From: Candidatus Enterococcus ferrettii
Lineage (GTDB): Bacteria; Bacillota; Bacilli; Lactobacillales; Enterococcaceae
DNA length: 64,000 nt
Direction of reading: 5' to 3'
NCBI RefSeq assembly: GCF_017377655.1
Contig: NZ_JAFREL010000008.1
Coordinates: forward strand, 19,944-83,943
Part shown: positions 32,359-57,753 of the stretch, piece by piece
Layout: every line of letters begins with the position of its first letter
How positions within the stretch are numbered: the first letter of the stretch is position 1
Notes under the pieces: generated by a model
Seen by the model: the letters and a program-made list of their open reading frames with translations, nothing else
Told to the model about the DNA's origin: nothing
Database searches by the model: none
Made by a program: the position numbers and the translations under genes

Positions 32359-32387
32359 ATTCTCAGTGAAAAAAACTGAATAGCGAG

Positions 32388-33090
<703 letters not shown>

Positions 33091-49610: not shown

Positions 49611-49773
49611 GTTGTGTTTATGAATTCACTTCATAGATACAACGTTTAGACTATCTCTAAATTGTGTATCTATGCGCTGGTACTATTTGTGTCGTTTCCC
49701 GCATAGAGCAGATCTATGCGGTTTTTGTCTTTATTAGGCAGCTACCGTCATTCGTGGGGGTAGTTGCCTTTTT
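49611..49773 (+). promoter_or_regulatory. Trp-responsive attenuator with tandem terminators
   Basis: Segments: A 49611-49624 pairs with B 49630-49643 (14 bp, two wobbles); B (CATAGATAC, 49632-49640) can instead pair with C (GTATCTATG, 49666-49674); C (CTATGCG, 49670-49676) with D (CGCATAG, 49700-49706); D (CCGCATAGA, 49699-49707) with E (TCTATGCGG, 49713-49721) plus TTTTT as terminator 1. Terminator 2 is GGCAGCTACC (49737-49746) / GGTAGTTGCC (49759-49768) plus T5. A ribosome at the leader stop would cover A and favour B:C and D:E (termination); stalling at Trp leaves A:B and C:D (read-through). The rest of the 360-bp gap, up to the trpX ribosome site, holds nothing else. Confidence 0.8.
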
Positions 49774-49825
49774 CGCATTTATTTTAAAATTAAACAACTA
49801 CAATTAGAATTTGGGGGACTTATTT

Positions 49826-50839
49826 ATGAAAAACAAGGGGATTATCGGATCAATTATTGCATTAGCCGTGATATTAATTGGAGTATTTGCTTATCAAATG
49901 GGCTCAAGACAAAACAACACTCAAACAGATCAAAAAGAAGAAATGAAAACTGTTGGAATTCTGCAGTTCATCAGTCACCCTTCACTAGATCAAATTTCTG
50001 ATGGGGTAATTGAAGGCCTAAAGCAGGAAGGATTTGAAGATGGTAAAAATATCAATATTGAGTTTTTAAATGGTCAAGGGGACCAAAGCAAACTAAACAC
50101 TATGACTCAGCAACTATTAAACAAAAAGTCAGATGTATTAGTTGGTGTTGCAACACCAGCAGCCAAAGCATTAGCCAATGGAACTTCTGATATTCCTGTA
50201 ATCATGGGGGCAGTAAGCGATCCAGTGGGTTCGGGCTTAGTGGATACTTTAGAAAAGCCTGGTGGTAACGTAACTGGGGTGAATAATTTAGCACCTGTGG
50301 GTCAACAATTTGAATTAATCAGAGCGTTGTTCCCGGAAGCGAAGAAAATAGCTTTGCTCTATTCTTCTTCTGAAGAAAACTCACAAGCGCAAATTGATAA
50401 GGCAGAAGAAATGGCGAAAAAAGAAGGGTACGAAGCAACTCGGTACGCTGTATCCTCAAGTAATGAAATTGCGCAGTTAGCGCAATCAGCAGCAGCGGAA
50501 AATGATTTTATCTATGTACCTCAGGATAATATTATCGCAAGTGCATTCCAAACAGTTATTAATGAATCTGACAAAACGAAAACGCCAGTCTTTGTTTCAG
50601 TGGACAATATGGTAGATGAAGGCGGAATCGCTACGATCGGACAAAATCAATTTGATCTAGGTGTTGAAACTGGTAAAATGGCTGCCGATGTTTTAAATGG
50701 TAATACCGATGCAGGTAATACACCAGTTAATGTGATTGACTATGGTGAAATGATTATCAATGAAAAGAAAGCAGCGGAATTAGGTATTACTATTCCAGAA
50801 AATATTAAAAAAGAAGCGAAATTGGTTGAAGGAGAATAG
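49826..50839 (+). CDS. trpX: Tryptophan ABC transporter substrate-binding protein
   Basis: A 337-aa binding protein of the COG2984 family. An uncleaved N-terminal anchor helix (about 5-26) is followed by the two-lobed domain, for example TVGILQFISHPSLDQISDG and PVIMGAVSDPVGSGLV. No lipobox Cys is visible. In streptococci and enterococci this family with its permease and ATPase forms TrpXYZ; the Trp-coded leader peptide just upstream supports tryptophan as substrate. ATG 49826 follows GGGGGA. Confidence 0.88.
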   Translation: MKNKGIIGSIIALAVILIGVFAYQMGSRQNNTQTDQKEEMKTVGILQFISHPSLDQISDGVIEGLKQEGFEDGKNINIEFLNGQGDQSKLNTMTQQLLNKKSDVLVGVATPAAKALANGTSDIPVIMGAVSDPVGSGLVDTLEKPGGNVTGVNNLAPVGQQFELIRALFPEAKKIALLYSSSEENSQAQIDKAEEMAKKEGYEATRYAVSSSNEIAQLAQSAAAENDFIYVPQDNIIASAFQTVINESDKTKTPVFVSVDNMVDEGGIATIGQNQFDLGVETGKMAADVLNGNTDAGNTPVNVIDYGEMIINEKKAAELGITIPENIKKEAKLVEGE

Positions 50840-50842
50840 AAA

Positions 50843-51721
50843 ATGGTCATTTCAGCAATTGGACAAGGATTTTTATGGGGAATTTTAGGCTTAGGAATTT
50901 TCATGACCTATCGTATTCTAAACTTTCCTGATATGACAACTGAAGGATCTTTCCCCTTGGGAGGAGCGGTCTGTGTAACAGCAATTACACAAGGAATTCA
51001 CCCTATACTAGCAACACTATTAGGTATTCTGGCAGGTATGTGTGCAGGATTTGTTACCGGTATGCTTTATACGAAAGGAAAAATCCCGGTCATTTTGGCA
51101 GGAATTCTAGTAATGTCTGGTTTAAACTCAGTGATGCTGTTTATTATGCAGACACCGAACTTGTCATTGCTGAATAAACCAAAAATTCAAGATTTTTTCA
51201 CTGGATTAAACTTACCTAACCATTATGATATTGTCATTTTAGGTTTGATTGCAGTTAGCCTGATTATTGCTTTGCTGCTATTCTTCTTTTTCACCGATTT
51301 TGGTCAAGCGTACATCGCTACAGGTGATAATGAAAATATGGCGCGCTCAATTGGGATCAATACCGATCGCATGAAGGTAATTGGTTTGACTTTGTCAAAT
51401 GGAGTAATTGCATTATCAGGAGCGTTAATTGCTCAAAATGATGGCTATGCCGATATTGGTAAAGGAATTGGCGTAATCGTGATTGGTTTAGCGTCCATTA
51501 TAATTGGGGAAGTACTGTATGGCGAGCTATCCTTTGGTGAACGGCTGATTGCTGTTGTTTTAGGCAGTGTTATCTATCAATTATTGATCTTACTAATTAT
51601 CAAACTAGGTTTGGATACAACCTATTTAAAGATCTTCTCATCAATCATTTTGGCAATCTGTCTAATGATTCCACGCTTAAAGGAAGCACTGAATTTAAAA
51701 ACTGGATTAGAAAAGGAGTAA
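50843..51721 (+). CDS. trpY: Tryptophan ABC transporter permease
   Basis: A 292-aa integral membrane protein of the branched-chain-type ABC permease family (COG4120) with about nine hydrophobic helices. The segment ATGDNENMARSIGINTDRMKV is the cytoplasmic coupling region. It starts 3 bp after trpX and is followed 4 bp later by the ATPase gene. Confidence 0.88.
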   Translation: MVISAIGQGFLWGILGLGIFMTYRILNFPDMTTEGSFPLGGAVCVTAITQGIHPILATLLGILAGMCAGFVTGMLYTKGKIPVILAGILVMSGLNSVMLFIMQTPNLSLLNKPKIQDFFTGLNLPNHYDIVILGLIAVSLIIALLLFFFFTDFGQAYIATGDNENMARSIGINTDRMKVIGLTLSNGVIALSGALIAQNDGYADIGKGIGVIVIGLASIIIGEVLYGELSFGERLIAVVLGSVIYQLLILLIIKLGLDTTYLKIFSSIILAICLMIPRLKEALNLKTGLEKE

Positions 51722-51725
51722 GCAG

Positions 51726-52508
51726 ATGGAGGCATTACAAATCAAGCAAGCAACTAAAACCATTCGCAATGGGATCAACGATAAACGCCAAATTCTGCGC
51801 TCTGTTGATTTAACCATTCAACCAGGCGAATTCGTTACCGTCTTAGGCGGGAATGGAGCAGGAAAAAGTACCTTGTTTAATAGTATTTCGGGAACAATGA
51901 TGTTGGATAGTGGTACAGTTTCGGTGATGGGCAACGATCTAACTAAGCTTTCTGAAGAAAAACGAGCGAATTACATTTCTCGAGTTTTCCAAGACCCTAA
52001 GATGGGAACCGCACCACGACTGACTGTCGCAGAAAATTTGGGTTTAGCTGAAAAACGAGGACAAAAGCGAGCATTGCGGCCACGCAATTTGTCACAAAAA
52101 CGAGATTCTTATCATCAGCTATGCAGCCAAGTTGGTAACGGGCTGGAAAATCACTTGGATACACCAACCGGCTTTTTATCTGGTGGTCAACGTCAGGCGT
52201 TAAGTTTGCTGATGGCAACCTTAACCAAACCAGATTTGCTATTATTAGATGAGCATACTGCAGCACTCGATCCTAAAACCGCGAAACAATTGATGCAGGT
52301 AACGGATCAAAAAATTAAAGAGGAACAACTGACCTGCCTAATGGTTACCCACAAAATGGAGGACGCCTTAAATTATGGGAATCGGGTAATCGTAATGCAA
52401 AAAGGTCAAATCGTTAAAGACCTAAAAGGTGAGGAAAAAGCTAAGCTTTCCCTAACCGATTTGTTCTTATTTTTTGAAGAAGAGGAAGCGGCAGAAGAAA
52501 ATAGCTAA
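51726..52508 (+). CDS. trpZ: Tryptophan ABC transporter ATP-binding protein
   Basis: A 260-aa ABC ATPase (COG1101). Walker A GGNGAGKST, signature LSGGQRQAL, Walker B DLLLLDEHTAALDP and the H-loop VTHKMED are all intact. It powers uptake through the TrpY permease. Last gene before the aro leader; no clear terminator separates it from the aro promoter. Confidence 0.9.
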   Translation: MEALQIKQATKTIRNGINDKRQILRSVDLTIQPGEFVTVLGGNGAGKSTLFNSISGTMMLDSGTVSVMGNDLTKLSEEKRANYISRVFQDPKMGTAPRLTVAENLGLAEKRGQKRALRPRNLSQKRDSYHQLCSQVGNGLENHLDTPTGFLSGGQRQALSLLMATLTKPDLLLLDEHTAALDPKTAKQLMQVTDQKIKEEQLTCLMVTHKMEDALNYGNRVIVMQKGQIVKDLKGEEKAKLSLTDLFLFFEEEEAAEENS

Positions 52509-52538: not shown

Positions 52539-52567
52539 TTGACAAGTAAATTAAAGAAATTTATACT
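52539..52567 (+). promoter_or_regulatory. aro operon promoter
   Basis: TTGACA (52539-52544), 17 bases, TATACT (52562-52567). A near-consensus promoter upstream of the aromatic leader peptide. Confidence 0.85.
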
Positions 52568-52602
52568 TAGTGCAAATCAGAAATCAGTTTGGAGCGATGA
52601 TC

Positions 52603-52659
52603 ATGCAAAATATTAGACATCCACAACTGAATAATTCTTACTTTAGCTATTTTAGATAG
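52603..52659 (+). CDS. Aromatic leader peptide (MQNIRHPQLNNSYFSYFR)
   Basis: An 18-codon ORF with GGAG (52591-52594) eight bases upstream. Codons 13-17 read Tyr-Phe-Ser-Tyr-Phe, directly before the stop, so translation will stall when charged tRNA-Tyr or tRNA-Phe is short. It has the same length as the trp leader peptide and shares the QLN triplet before the sensing codons. The downstream operon makes chorismate, tyrosine and phenylalanine precursors, matching the codons. Confidence 0.87.
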   Translation: MQNIRHPQLNNSYFSYFR

Positions 52660-52822
52660 GTTTGTATTCATGTGTTCATGGATGCAAACAATGCACGTTT
52701 GTATCTATGATGGCTGAAGAACTTTAAATTGACTTTAAAGCCATGTAGATGATTCATCTATAATGGCTTTTTTCGTTTATTGGACCCATTGTAGATGTAA
52801 CACCTACAAGCGGGTCTTTTTT
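52660..52822 (+). promoter_or_regulatory. Tyr/Phe-responsive chain attenuator with two terminators
   Basis: Successive segments can each pair with the one before or after. A 52660-52672 with B 52677-52689 (13 bp, two wobbles). B 52681-52689 with C 52697-52705 (9 bp). C 52703-52715 with D 52739-52750. D 52737-52751 with E 52755-52770 plus T-run, terminator 1. E CATCTATAATGG (52755-52766) with F CCATTGTAGATG (52786-52797; 12 bp, one wobble). F, within GACCC and TTGTAG (52783-52794), with CTACAA and GGGTC (52804-52816) plus T-run, terminator 2. Stalling on Tyr/Phe codons leaves A:B, C:D and E:F, so neither terminator forms; a ribosome at the stop covers A and favours B:C, D:E and terminator 2. 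The rest of the 350-bp gap holds only the promoter and leader ORF. Confidence 0.82.
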
Positions 52823-52859
52823 GTCGATTGAAATCCAGGTTTAGAAAGAGGAATGAAGG

Positions 52860-54026
52860 ATGCGTTATTTAACAGCAGGAGAGTCACACGGACCACAATT
52901 AACAGCAATTATTGAAGGAGTACCAGCAGGAATAGCGGTATCTTTAGATGAAATTAATCAAGAGTTGGCTAGACGTCAAGGTGGGTATGGACGTGGCGGA
53001 AGAATGAAAATTGAAAAGGATCAGGTTCAAATCACCTCAGGCATTCGTCATGGGAAAACATTGGGAGCACCAATTACCATGGTCGTGGAAAACCGTGATT
53101 GGAAAAACTGGCAAACCGTCATGTCTGTAGAAGAAGTCGCTGAAAAAGATGCGCAATTACGCAAAGTGACCAAACCACGCCCGGGTCACGCAGATTTAGT
53201 TGGTGGCATGAAGTATCAACATCGAGACTTGCGTAATATTTTGGAACGTTCATCGGCACGGGAAACAACTATGCGCGTTGCAGTTGGTGGATTAGCTAAG
53301 CAAATTTTAAAAGCTTTAGATATTGAGATTGCCAGTCATGTGGTGAATCTAGGTGGAATTGAAGCTAAAATTCCTGAAGTAATCAGCGTCAAGGAAATCC
53401 AACAGGCTGCAGCAGCCTCAGAGGTAAACATGGTCGATCCTTCTATTGAGGAAGCGGTAAAGGCTAAAATTGATGAAACGAAAAAAGCTGGCAATACAAT
53501 TGGCGGTGTAGTAGAAGTGCGTTTAGAGAATGTTCCAGCTGGTTTAGGTAGTTACGTTCAATGGGACCGCAAATTGGACGGTAAAATTGCTCAGTCGATT
53601 GTCAGCATCAATGCTTTCAAGGGCGTTGAATTTGGTGTTGGTTTCCAGGCTGCAAACTTACCAGGTTCAGAAGTCATGGATGAAATTACTTGGAAAGAAG
53701 CAGAGGGATACCGCCGCAAAACCAATCATTTAGGTGGTTTTGAAGGAGGCATGACCAACGGTGAGCAGATTGTCGTACGGGGAGTGATGAAGCCTATTCC
53801 TACTTTGTACAAGCCCTTAATGAGTGTTGATATAGATACTAAGGAACCTTATAAAGCGAGTGTTGAACGTTCGGATAGTACAGCAGTACCTGCAGCAGCT
53901 ATTGTAGCTGAGAATGTAGTAGCTACAGTTATCGCTACTGAAATCCTAGAGCAGTTTCATTCTGATAATATCGCGGATCTAATTAATAATGTAGAAGAGA
54001 TGCGTAAACAGCATTTGATGTTTTAG
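52860..54026 (+). CDS. aroC: Chorismate synthase
   Basis: A 388-aa FMN-dependent enzyme that converts EPSP to chorismate. Signatures: [18 protein letters not shown] at the N-terminus, [23 protein letters not shown] and the C-terminal [11 protein letters not shown]. First structural gene after the aromatic attenuator; AGAGGAATGAAGG is the ribosome site. Confidence 0.96.
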
Positions 54027-54040
54027 GAAGGTTGTCGCAG

Positions 54041-55123
54041 ATGGAAAAGAAAATTTTTGTGGTGGGTTTAGGTCTGATTGGTGCTTCCTTGTGTCGAGCA
54101 ATCAAACGTCCAGACATCAAACTGTATGGCTGGGATTTCCAAGCAGAAAGTTGCCAGATTGCACAAGAGACTGGAATTGTTGATGAAATCGCTGAGGGTT
54201 TAGAGTCAGCAGTAGAGATGGATGTTATTATTTTAGCGGTACCAGTTAGTGTTTCAATAGAATATCTGCAAAAATTAGCTCAATTACCCTTAAAAAAAGA
54301 CGCCATTGTCACCGATGTTGGTAGTACCAAATCGGCAATTGTTAAATTGGCCAAAACTTTACCCTTGACCTTTGTAGGCGGACATCCCATGTCAGGCTCA
54401 CATAAATCCGGAGTAAAAGCAGCAAATCCCAATTTATTTGAGGAAGCCTACTATATTTTAACACCGGTTAAGGATCAACAACCAATAGTAGATCAGCTAA
54501 TCGAACTTTTAGCACCGACCAGAGCTAAGTTTGTTGTTCTTGACCCAGAGAGTCATGATGAAATGGTGGGAGTATTGAGCCATCTTCCTCATATCGTAGC
54601 TTCAGGGCTGATGCAAATGAGCGATCAATTGGCAGGAACTTATCCTAGAGCAAATCAGCTGGCAGCAGGTGGCTTTCGTGATATCACTAGAATCGCTTCT
54701 TCTGATCCCAAAATGTGGACTGATATTTTGCTGACCAACCGAAAAATTTTATTAAAGCTGATGGATGACTGGCAGCAGGAAATGAATGAAATTAAGCAGC
54801 AGCTAAAAAGTAATGATCAGGAAGCTATTTATCAGTTCTTTGCTCAAGCCAAGAATACACGAGATCATTTACCGCAAAAGGATCAAGGCGCTATTCCTGC
54901 CTTTTATGATTTGTTGGTAGATATTCCTGATATTGCTGGAGCAGTCGCTCAAGTAACAACGGTATTAAGTCAGCATAAAATTTCAATTATCAACTTGAAA
55001 ATTCAGGAAACTCGTGAGGATATTTTCGGTGTTTTAGAATTGTCATTTAAAAGTAAAACAGATCTACTGGCAGGCAAAGCACTTGTTGAAGCAGAAAAAT
55101 TTAATTGTCGGATAAGGAGTTAA
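54041..55123 (+). CDS. tyrA: Prephenate dehydrogenase with ACT domain
   Basis: A 360-aa NAD-dependent enzyme giving 4-hydroxyphenylpyruvate, the tyrosine precursor. The N-terminal Rossmann motif is [14 protein letters not shown], the catalytic region has [10 protein letters not shown] and LSHLPHIVA, and the last 75 residues look like an ACT regulatory domain ([20 protein letters not shown]). ATG 54041 lies 9 bases after AGGAAGG; a TTG at 54032 abuts that site. Confidence 0.93.
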
Positions 55124-55127
55124 TACC

Positions 55128-56411
55128 ATGCGTTTAATGTCAAAGTCAAAAGGTTTATTAGGTGAATTAGTAGTTCCAGCAGACAAGTCAATTTCTCACC
55201 GTAGTGTGATGTTTGGGGCAATCAGTCATGGCACCACCACTATCCACAACTTTCTAAAAGCTGAGGACTGCTTAAGTTCAGTTGCTGTTTTTAAAAAGTT
55301 GGGTGTTTCAATTGAAGAAAAAGATGAGGTACTAACGGTTCAAGGAAAAGGATTTGAAGGGTTGGAGCAACCTACTGAAATACTAGATGCCGGTAATTCA
55401 GGTACTACGATGCGTTTAGTAATGGGGATTTTGGCAGGGCGGCCTTTTTATTCAACTATTCAAGGCGATAGTTCTCTAAATAAACGTCCGATGGAACGGG
55501 TGATGGGACCGCTGCGTCAGATGGGAGCAGAACTTACTGGTAATCAAAAAACAGAATATCCACCAATTACAGTAAAAGGTGGAGCATTGAAAGCTATCCA
55601 ATACCAAATGCCAATCGCCAGTGCACAGGTCAAATCAGCGATTTTGTTTGCAGCTTTGCAGGCTAAGGGAGAAACTACAGTAATTGAACAAGCTTGTTCA
55701 CGCAATCATACGGAACAGATGATTCGTCAATTTGGCGGTGAAATTAAGGTTGAGGACAAGAAAATTCAACTTACTGGTAATCAAAAACTAACGGGTCAAG
55801 AGATTCATGTACCAGGAGATATTTCTTCAGCTGCCTTTTTCTTAGTTGCTGCACTATTAGTTCCAGAAAGTTCATTGTGTCTCAGAAAAGTCGGTGTAAA
55901 TCCTACTCGTACTGGTATTTTAGATGTTCTGAAAAAAATGGGTGCCAAGATTACTCAGACAAATGAAGACACACAAAATCAAGCGGCTGATTTGTTAGTA
56001 GAAAGCAGTACATTGAAAGCCTGCGAAATTGGCGGAGAAATTATTCCGCGTTTGATCGATGAATTACCAATACTGGCATTGGCTGCAACTCAAGCAGAAG
56101 GTACGACGATTATCAAGGATGCTCAGGAGTTAAAAGTCAAAGAAACCAATCGGATTGATGCGACTGCCGATGAACTAAATAAAATGGGTGCTAACATTGA
56201 AGCAACCGAGGATGGCATGATAATTCATGGTCCGACCCCTTTACATGGAGCAGCAGTTGACAGTCATGGCGACCATCGGATTGGGATGATGCTGCAAATC
56301 GCCGCATTGTTAACTAACGAGGCTGTCGAATTAACCAATCCAGAGGCAATTAATATTTCTTATCCAGATTTTTTCAAAGATTTAAATCAATTAATAAAGG
56401 GGCGGATATAG
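55128..56411 (+). CDS. aroA: 3-phosphoshikimate 1-carboxyvinyltransferase (EPSP synthase)
   Basis: A 427-aa EPSP synthase, joining shikimate 3-phosphate and PEP. Motifs: [11 protein letters not shown] (20-30), [12 protein letters not shown] around residue 88, and [13 protein letters not shown] late in the protein. The loop after the GNSGTT motif follows the class II style found in Gram-positives, to judge by eye. It starts 4 bp after tyrA. Confidence 0.95.
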
Positions 56412-56413
56412 TA

Positions 56414-56914
56414 ATGGAAGCAATTGTGTTGATTGGGTTTATGGGAGCAGGAAAAACAACAATAAGCAAAGAATTAGCTGAAACATTAAATTATCAACGA
56501 GTAGACATGGATGATGTCTTAGTTGATCGGATTGGTCCGATTAATGTTTACTTTGAAGAGCATGGGGAGCCTTCATTCCGTGAGCATGAAACAAATTTAT
56601 TGAAGGAAGCTGTTCAACAAGCTTCGGTAATTGCTACTGGCGGTGGTGTCATTTTACAAAAGGAAAATCAAAAAATCTTATCAGATAAAACGGTTGTTTA
56701 TTTGAAAACTGATCCGGATGTTTTGGTCGAACGTATTCGCAATGATCAAGAAAATATTCGTCCAAATGCTGCCAACAAAAATGATGGAGAAATTAAGCAT
56801 TTATTCTTTTCTAGGGAAAAGCTCTATGAAAAATTAGCAAAGGTGACGGTGGATACTTCTCGTCGTACACCCAAAGAAATTGTTGAAGAAATCATAGAAA
56901 AGGTTGGAGTATAA
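56414..56914 (+). CDS. aroK: Shikimate kinase
   Basis: A 166-aa P-loop kinase phosphorylating shikimate. Walker A GFMGAGKTT, the substrate-binding DMDD (QRVDMDDVLV), the EPSFREHE segment and ATGGGVILQ are all present. Its stop overlaps the pheA start by one base (TAATG). Confidence 0.94.
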   Translation: MEAIVLIGFMGAGKTTISKELAETLNYQRVDMDDVLVDRIGPINVYFEEHGEPSFREHETNLLKEAVQQASVIATGGGVILQKENQKILSDKTVVYLKTDPDVLVERIRNDQENIRPNAANKNDGEIKHLFFSREKLYEKLAKVTVDTSRRTPKEIVEEIIEKVGV

Positions 56915-57753
56915 TGGATATTGGCTATTTGGGTCCAAAAGGTTCGTTTACTCATTCTGCTGCCTGCAGCTATTTTTCTAATGGAAATTTTATTAGCTAC
57001 TCCTCCTTGGTACAATTAATTGATGCCCGGATGAACAAACAGATTGATTATGCCATGGTACCCGTAGAGAATACAATTGAAGGTTCGGTTTTGCCGACGA
57101 TTGACGGAGTTTATCAAACTTTGCCAACTATTCAGGGCGAGCTAGTGTTGCCGATTGCTCAGCAGTTGATGGTGCACAAGGATCATCAAAACCAGTGGCA
57201 GAATGCGACCTTGATTTGCAGCCATCCACAGGCACTAGCACAATCACAGGTATTTATTCGTGATCGTATCCCTAATGCAGAGATTGAACAAATGGCTTCA
57301 ACGACTTTAGGCGCTAAAAAGGTAGCTGACCATCCTAAAGAAATTTACGCGGCAATCGGTCCGAAAATGGCTGCTAAAGAATATGATTTGGTAATTGTAG
57401 AGGAAGATATTCAGTCAGTCGCTAATAATGAGACTCGTTTTTGGTTATTAGGAGACGAGCCAATTGATACGGAGCTACTCTTTGCGGAACAAAAAGCTAC
57501 TTTGATTGTTGATTTGCCGATGGACCGCCCCGGTGCTTTGTATCACTTGCTGGAAATATTTGCTAAAGCAAAAATCAACTTAACAAAGATCGAGTCGCGA
57601 CCGCAAAAAACTCGATTAGGAGATTATTTCTTCATCATTGATTTAGAGGTTCCAGAAAATTCGACTGTATTGGATAATGCATTAGCGCAATTGGATGGAC
57701 AAAACTTCCCTTTTAATCTAATAGGAAATTATCCTACTTACCGAAAACCTTAG
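56914..57753 (+). CDS. pheA: Prephenate dehydratase
   Basis: A 279-aa mono-functional prephenate dehydratase making phenylpyruvate. It opens with IGYLGPKGSFTHSAA, has PVENTIEGSV and the catalytic Thr-Arg-Phe in NETRFWLLG, then a C-terminal ACT domain with LTKIESRPQK, the phenylalanine-binding feedback site. Last gene of the aro operon. Confidence 0.95.
   Translation: MDIGYLGPKGSFTHSAACSYFSNGNFISYSSLVQLIDARMNKQIDYAMVPVENTIEGSVLPTIDGVYQTLPTIQGELVLPIAQQLMVHKDHQNQWQNATLICSHPQALAQSQVFIRDRIPNAEIEQMASTTLGAKKVADHPKEIYAAIGPKMAAKEYDLVIVEEDIQSVANNETRFWLLGDEPIDTELLFAEQKATLIVDLPMDRPGALYHLLEIFAKAKINLTKIESRPQKTRLGDYFFIIDLEVPENSTVLDNALAQLDGQNFPFNLIGNYPTYRKP

Follow-up and report, generated by a model that had tools for sequence, protein, structure and literature searches.

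The aroC-tyrA-aroA-aroK-pheA operon of Candidatus Enterococcus ferrettii is very probably controlled by a ribosome-mediated transcription attenuator that works as a kinetic domino relay. Within the window (the whole stretch of 64,000 nucleotides that was analysed), the operon is headed by a promoter, the 18-codon leader MQNIRHPQLNNSYFSYFR, a chain of pairing segments A–G and two terminators, and re-reading and folding of the sequence located every element that an earlier note had placed at 52539..52859 (Table 1). We also consider it likely that a single signal of ribosome position travels from hairpin to hairpin over seven segments, that it switches both terminators before aro genes and in transporter copies skips a silent relay hairpin to reach a single distant terminator, that such domino attenuators make up a Tyr/Phe and Trp regulon across Lactobacillales, and that two orphan Rfam families are parts of them. 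The element described in the earlier note is real and conserved, and it has more support than was available to that note.

Table 1. Features of the Tyr/Phe attenuator and of the neighbouring Trp element, in window coordinates.
Feature	Position	Strand	Evidence or remark
Sister leader peptide MFRTNLSVQLNSWQNWRR with stop, two Trp codons	49554..49610	+	~3 kb upstream of the Tyr/Phe element
Sub-threshold trpB-motif match	49630..49733	+	49.9 bits, cut-off 59; B:C hairpin and D:E terminator of the putative Trp attenuator
TrpXYZ-like ABC transporter operon	49811..52508	+	PF04392, PF02653, PF00005; Gln in the binding protein at the Trp selector site
Sigma-70-type promoter, TTGACA-17-TATACT	52539..52567	+	11/12 consensus bases
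Shine-Dalgarno GGAG of the leader peptide	52591..52594	+	Sequence; comparable SD in relatives
Leader peptide ORF MQNIRHPQLNNSYFSYFR with stop	52603..52659	+	Tyr13, Phe14, Tyr16, Phe17
Segment L, within the Tyr/Phe codons	52641..52658	+	Pairs with C (52702–52719) around A:B; proposed default-off clamp
Rfam RF02863 sRNA_2410 match	52643..52784	+	72.5 bits, gathering cut-off 61
Segment A	52660..52672	+	A:B −16.5 kcal/mol
Segment B	52676..52689	+	Partner A or C
Segment C	52697..52719	+	Partner L, B or D
Segment D	52733..52751	+	Partner C or E
Terminator 1 (D:E hairpin and six T)	52740..52773	+	Terminator-like in segmentation
Segment E	52755..52770	+	Partner D or F
Segment F	52782..52797	+	Partner E or G
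Terminator 2 (F:G hairpin and six T)	52782..52822	+	F:G both-sided changes in 9/13 pairs
aroC, chorismate synthase, first gene of the operon	52860..54026	+	Pfam PF01264
tyrA, aroA, aroK, pheA	54032..57753	+	Pfam PF02153, PF00275, PF01202, PF00800

Read from its sequence, the element carries the marks of an attenuator: a predicted leader ORF with a Shine-Dalgarno (SD) sequence and matching Tyr and Phe codons, followed by mutually exclusive, neighbour-pairing segments (L and A–G) that end in a terminator. Folding bore out the proposed chain in which each segment can pair with either neighbour, with predicted energies for the remaining helices of −17.6 (B:C), −13.6 (C:D), −13.3 (D:E), −14.4 (E:F) and −15.1 kcal/mol (F:G), and the E:F helix has the 12 contiguous pairs claimed for it. 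The D:E and F:G hairpins, previously described as terminators with T-runs, were indeed both terminator-like, and six T lie 3′ of each (52768–52773 and 52817–52822, respectively); a simple terminator scan of the window listed neither because it accepts only unbroken stems with loops of 3–8. Absent from the earlier description was a 17-bp helix of L with C, which is included in the Rfam RF02863 consensus and whose cells were paired at 99.7% in 43 aro loci. The promoter call is weak on its own since the scan returned 12 promoter-like sites and shuffles 10.0 ± 3.2. At gathering, the whole window gave two Rfam matches, RF02863 and RF00515, the latter a PyrR binding site (56.7 bits, 32386–32524); with no T-box match found in the leader and no other cis element at gathering, such an element was rejected as the basis of the Tyr/Phe leader.

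In the proposed mechanism, with no ribosome on the leader, or with a ribosome held before the aromatic run, A:B and then L:C would form and lock C, D:E would pair, and transcription would stop at terminator 1, F:G being the second terminator. With the ribosome at the stop codon, L and A would be covered, B:C would form, and D:E and F:G would follow as before. A ribosome delayed within the Tyr/Phe codons because tRNA-Tyr or tRNA-Phe is uncharged would instead cover L and leave A free to form A:B, whereupon C would take D, E would take F, and both terminators would be pre-empted. The L:C clamp would therefore limit the ON state to a ribosome on the aromatic stretch, and a leader that is not translated should, on this model, be OFF through L:C. 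In the transporter copies, D:E would be only a relay to the single terminator F:G. The ON state would rest on the order of synthesis and on barriers between the helices.

Whether ribosome position selects the antiterminator, as the earlier note had it, was answered in part by a footprint scan, in which the ribosome was set codon by codon and the RNA folded to equilibrium at several lengths. With RNA to 52756 (D just out), an A-site at Ser12 to Phe17 gave C:D of 0.86–0.87 and A:B of 0.68–1.00, and a ribosome at Arg18 or the stop gave B:C of 0.95–0.96 with C:D at 0.26 and 0.45; with C just out, L:C stood at 0.92–0.93 for codons 1–9 or no ribosome. Folding at other lengths disagreed. RNA to 52722 (C just out) favoured B:C (0.72–1.00) and not A:B with the ribosome on codons 12–17, RNA to 52800 (F out) gave E:F of at most 0.03 at all ribosome positions except for 0.30 at the stop, and even at 52756 without a ribosome C:D (0.72) exceeded L:C (0.16), as it did at some early codons. 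At full length both terminators dominated at every ribosome position (D:E 0.95, F:G 0.91–0.93), so equilibrium folding fails there as proof of switching and read-through must be kinetic. Path barriers, which are heuristic estimates, were computed because of this failure, and several of them fit the claim. The barrier from L:C to C:D without a ribosome was 15.5 kcal/mol; with the ribosome on Tyr13, those from A:B to B:C and from E:F to F:G were 10.1 and 14.3 kcal/mol, and once D was out B:C passed to A:B plus C:D over 4.6 kcal/mol, with 16.8 kcal/mol for the reverse. The A:B to B:C barrier drops to 6.6 kcal/mol at Tyr16 and 4.0 kcal/mol at Phe17. From C:D to D:E it is just 8.7 kcal/mol, so terminator 1 may leak, and on the computed barriers terminator 2 would be blocked more firmly than terminator 1. 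Overall the barriers agree in part with a kinetic ON state. The Tyr/Phe leader attenuator of the earlier note stands as to leader and chain, but that description missed L:C, with the OFF states it would provide, and its ON state is not the equilibrium state of the full-length RNA.

RF02863 was present in 20/20 genomes of the genus, in 101 of the 105 genomes of the family, which named matches indicate to be Enterococcaceae (95 above the cut-off), and in 0/14 control genomes. Five copies lie in the window's genome, where aroC and aroE each have their own (L005 and L004). A scripted scan of 153 loci gave 154 Tyr/Phe leaders, of which 152 remained once two duplicates were dropped; the terminal Tyr-Phe-Ser-Tyr-Phe-Arg of the 18-codon leader, present as first described, recurs as a YFSYFR end in 135 of these 152, and other ends include FFFSFFR, RYYVSYY and similar. 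By a motif test, the genes next to the 152 leaders encode an ABC binding protein (77), aroE (50), an aroB-like (8) or DAHP-synthase-like (6) product, aroC (5) or something else (6), and for every kind tested Pfam confirmed the call in one or two cases. An aro or ABC-transporter gene (motif test) lies just 3′ of the element in 146/152 loci, and its mutually exclusive helices and terminators suit a cis switch; that the element is instead a trans-acting small RNA, as its Rfam type ("Gene; sRNA") has it and as the discrete short transcripts of E. faecium might suggest (accessible text of PMC5593968), is scarcely credible.

Among named Enterococcus aroC loci, 28/34 had a Tyr/Phe leader within up to 6 kb upstream and six had none in that range. 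No YFSYFR-type leader occurred in the four non-Enterococcus aroC loci scanned (of 46); one of the four, L267, had an ORF passing a crude aromatic filter. The nearest named relative is E. pallens (AroC 95% identity), in a comparison that may omit the window's own record. A single contig of one genome (L038) carries two Tyr/Phe attenuators ~2.7 kb apart, one with a DAHP-synthase-like gene downstream and the other with a shikimate kinase gene ~0.3 kb past it.

Of the 152 loci, 143 were segmented, and nine were lost to a failing C pattern, eight of them rows of the transporter alignment described below. The 143 comprise 62 two-terminator loci, 69 transporter loci, and 12 loci, aro or other, that lack a D:E T-run. 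A first script had split them into 88 one-terminator and 55 two-terminator loci (75 and 68 under a looser rule), the 88 being the 69 transporter loci, the 12 aro or other loci, and seven in which the T-run was seen by eye inside a longer hairpin. Leaders before shikimate-pathway genes mostly have two terminators; in 69/69 segmented transporter loci F:G is the single terminator, with no D:E terminator detected. We scored pairing in each locus against 60 single-base shuffles, with a threshold of z < −2, and give counts below in the order two-terminator, transporter, aro/other. Neighbouring segments outscored the shuffles in almost every locus: L:C passed in 62/62, 66/69 and 12/12 loci, C:D in 61/62, 59/69 and 7/12, and E:F in 61/62, 58/69 and 11/12; D:E and F:G scores are partly built in because both were selected as hairpins. 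The non-neighbour pairs L:D, A:D, D:F and C:E stayed close to zero, and B:D gave a weak signal (2/62, 7/69 and 1/12). C:F passed in 27/62, 2/69 and 0/12 although the two are not neighbours; C and E resemble one another.

Such C:F complementarity is what repeats would give, and it fits a scheme in which an old tandem duplication made E similar to C and F similar to D, E:F is a by-product, terminator 2 is an independent backup, and only terminator 1 is switched. We regard this as unlikely, in view of a swap test in which each helix partner was replaced by partners from other loci (2000 permutations per class). The own E:F partner beat the mean swapped partner in 37/62, 55/69 and 11/12 loci. In two-terminator loci the swap cost only 0.6 kcal/mol (−15.9 own, −15.3 swapped; 0/2000 permutations as good), as a backup would allow, but in transporter loci, which have no detected D:E terminator and nonetheless keep E:F, the own partner was 1.2 kcal/mol better (−13.2 vs. 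−12.0; 0/2000). In the 12 aro/other loci the values were −15.8 and −12.3 kcal/mol (1/2000); pooled, the own partner was better in 137/143, a figure inflated by the mixing of classes. Because E:F pairs and co-varies in transporter loci without a D:E terminator, the signal there would need a relay to F:G, which supports the earlier idea of one ribosome signal passing down the RNA.

Two hand-thinned alignments gave a similar picture, with co-variation statistics computed, as in the swap test, without control for relatedness. In A1 (43 aro loci), 93.5% of cells were paired for A:B, C:D and E:F and 95.5% for B:C, D:E and F:G; in A2 (52 transporter loci, several without a G arm), the two sets reached 87.4% and 86.9%. 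Sliding the partners lowered pairing to 31–49%. Cells with both-sided changes numbered 21 against 6.9 in shuffles and 92 against 25.8 in A1, and 78 against 46.9 and 101 against 49.9 in A2; pairs with a both-sided change in A1 (46/500) and further pair types in A2 (141/500 and 190/500) were not above shuffles. E:F cells were paired at 94.9% in A1, and in A2 the core helix was paired at 86.7% and its outer extension at only 47%. Both-sided changes occur in just 2/15 pairs of the A1 E:F helix, again as a backup terminator would have it, but one E/F column of A2 shows G-U 24, A-U 14 and G-C 14 times and is unpaired in 0/52 rows, which speaks against a mere backup. A sequence-only model of A1 served solely to re-find the window element. 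Conservation and co-variation of the segments, whose absence the earlier note would have held against the attenuator, were thus found in the family-wide occurrence, in the 152 leaders and in the E:F swaps. The co-variation holds for E:F in all three classes, but not for C:D (equalled by 1854, 1958 and 1949 of 2000 permutations, respectively), nor for A:B in the two-terminator class (1979/2000). Because C is nearly invariant, co-variation can say little about C:D and L:C.

The operon just upstream of the Tyr/Phe element, for a TrpXYZ-like transporter, has a sister leader with its Trp codons within QLNSWQNWRR. It overlaps no Rfam family at gathering: against the trpB motif (RF04312, cut-off 59), the Trp element scored 49.9 and the Tyr/Phe element 41.5. 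A T-rich second hairpin was seen by eye near 49735–49770, after the Trp element, with no obvious E:F partner; the lack of such a partner in the window's Trp attenuator is a further point for a backup terminator. In its accessible text, the trpB-motif paper presents the motif as a strong riboswitch candidate of Firmicutes and Fusobacteria, most often before an ABC transporter, and leaves a classic attenuator possible (PMC11109978). At E ≤ 0.001, RF04312 matched in 104/105 family genomes (42 above the cut-off, some of the weak matches being Tyr/Phe elements), in 137/246 genomes of the order (47 above), and in 5/398 across the phylum, of which one is the window's genome and another belongs to its order. 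The other three come from outside the order; two of them, L231 and L232, have no leader and look like chance matches, and a phylum-wide spread of the motif was rejected. The third, L230 (~1414–1620), in a distant genome of the phylum, has the Phe leader MNYINNFNLKIQIFFNNHFR with similar downstream repeats, a sodium:neurotransmitter-symporter gene (PF00209) downstream and a pan motif upstream. At L126 (1688–2004), group II intron domain matches lie directly 3′ of the trpB-motif element.

We took 74 trpB-motif loci, namely the top-ranked matches and 19 hand-chosen ones of lower rank, with many scores under the Rfam cut-off. The script found a leader ORF with an SD and at least one Trp codon in 71/74; 69 of these 71 passed a stricter filter, as did 67 of 14200 single-base shuffled regions. 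The three misses were L211 (region wrongly delimited), L221 (a Trp leader by eye, without an SD under the filter) and L227 (a Tyr/Phe leader). In the 70 segmented Trp loci, z < −2 was reached by L:C in 53, A:B in 60, C:D in 63, and B:C and D:E in 70 each, the last two having been selected as hairpins so that their scores are partly built in; among non-neighbours B:E reached it in 25/70 and L:B in 6/70. A trpB-like gene follows L131, L136 and L140 (Pfam PALP for L131 and L136). A riboswitch that binds a ligand, which is what the trpB motif was proposed to be, would account for the motif's two hairpins with covariation and its place among strong candidates (accessible text of PMC11109978), yet the prevalence of Trp-codon leaders far above shuffles and the way the leader codon class follows the type of downstream transporter make this reading highly improbable. 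The evidence suggests rather that sRNA_2410 and the trpB motif, two Rfam families catalogued without a function, are a leader-peptide switch.

That codon class was compared with the transporter binding proteins, 74 with Tyr/Phe and 58 with Trp leaders, which one branch of a quick tree divides. In crystal structures as given in the accessible text of PMC6816091, the marker residue is Gln in the Trp binder SP1069 (3LFT) but Tyr in both the Tyr binder CD0873 (6HNI) and the Phe binder VC_1101 (3LKV). By alignment the selector column holds Tyr in 74/74 Tyr/Phe-leader proteins and Gln in 58/58 Trp-leader proteins, so that the leader codons fit the published residue in 132/132 tree rows, a match of two clades and therefore close to one event. 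The rows came from a motif filter, and 13/71 Trp-leader loci lie outside the tree. Binding proteins outside it agree by eye: Tyr in L227 (another family, Tyr/Phe leader), Gln in L215 and L220 (Trp leaders).

The QLNN codons of the Tyr/Phe leader (window 52624–52635) are conserved at the nucleotide level, the first Asn codon being AAT in 152/152, and have no supported pairing partner; QLN recurs, with different codons, in many Trp leaders. SD sequestration by these codons was tried and rejected, since the pairing was weak: for classes A, T and W the median z was −1.57, −1.26 and 0.41. A 6-bp pairing with A was noticed by eye, with no co-variation seen by eye. TnaC and SpeFL are leader peptides that sense free ligands, and an arrest peptide here (QLNNxYFSYFR, QLNxWQNWRR) would act to opposite effect, with excess free aromatic amino acid holding the ribosome at the leader end, masking A and L and causing termination. 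The retained QLN, the invariant Asn codon with no supported partner, and the B:C formed by a ribosome held at the stop in the footprint scan would all fit. We nevertheless judge this quite improbable, as the N-terminal parts of the leaders vary, distant Trp leaders (MKKAKQFSWQL, MNNSKINELNIRWQSQY) lack the conserved tail, and arrest is not needed because L:C would already give an OFF state without stalling.

The preferred reading, attenuation by a leader peptide, is of a known kind. In the his, pheA and trp attenuators of Escherichia coli, the leader is rich in the regulated amino acid and the position of the ribosome picks between helices and a terminator; the his leader is also a row of alternating helices. 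The enterococcal element shares with these the leader peptide codons, the alternative helices and the terminator, but it differs in having two terminators on one chain and codons (L) that would clamp C in a default-off state, and its transporter copies differ in the proposed relay past a hairpin without a detected T-run. Within Firmicutes, His leader-peptide attenuators occur in Bacillus, Peptostreptococcaceae and Erysipelotrichales (accessible text of PMC2965389 and PMC9413887), so the mechanism, which the earlier note called uncommon there, is not unknown in the group. These resemble the enterococcal element as leader-peptide attenuation and differ in amino acid (histidine), genes and lineages, with no two-terminator chain described in the accessible text. 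Transcription of trpX in Streptococcus suis, for the same kind of transporter, is attenuated through a tryptophan T-box, a tRNA-binding element for which the accessible part of the source describes no leader peptide (PMC9382623).

The earlier note knew of no description of such a two-terminator chain. The sequence already bears a name, though one that does not carry this function: RF02863 sRNA_2410 (PMC5593968) is the same family, with a consensus that starts inside the leader codons, and, unlike in our reading, it is catalogued as an sRNA gene; "leader" and "attenuat" are absent from the main text of that paper. Northern blots validated sRNA_2410 in E. faecium, and it is among three sRNAs that gave two transcripts (accessible text of PMC5593968). 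The two could be short terminated leaders, a reading not given in that text. The two hairpins of the trpB motif, which precedes ABC transporters and trpB, correspond to B:C and D:E of the chain; the Tyr/Phe element differs in its extra segments F and G, and the motif is described as a riboswitch candidate (accessible text of PMC11109978). Among the titles and abstract openings returned by searches of open-access papers, none mentions an enterococcal Tyr/Phe or Trp leader attenuator or a two-terminator chain, and as far as these searches show the L:C clamp, the coupled second terminator and the relay hairpin are new.

If the proposed mechanism is true, sRNA_2410 and the trpB motif would both gain a function, and a proposed riboswitch would turn into translation-coupled sensing. 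Leader-peptide attenuation would then be a main means of controlling aromatic amino acids in a group for which T-boxes are the usual assumption, and the element would be a natural case of an RNA that hands a signal on through successive choices of strand. The leader codons would also predict the substrate of a clade of ABC transporters (Tyr/Phe).
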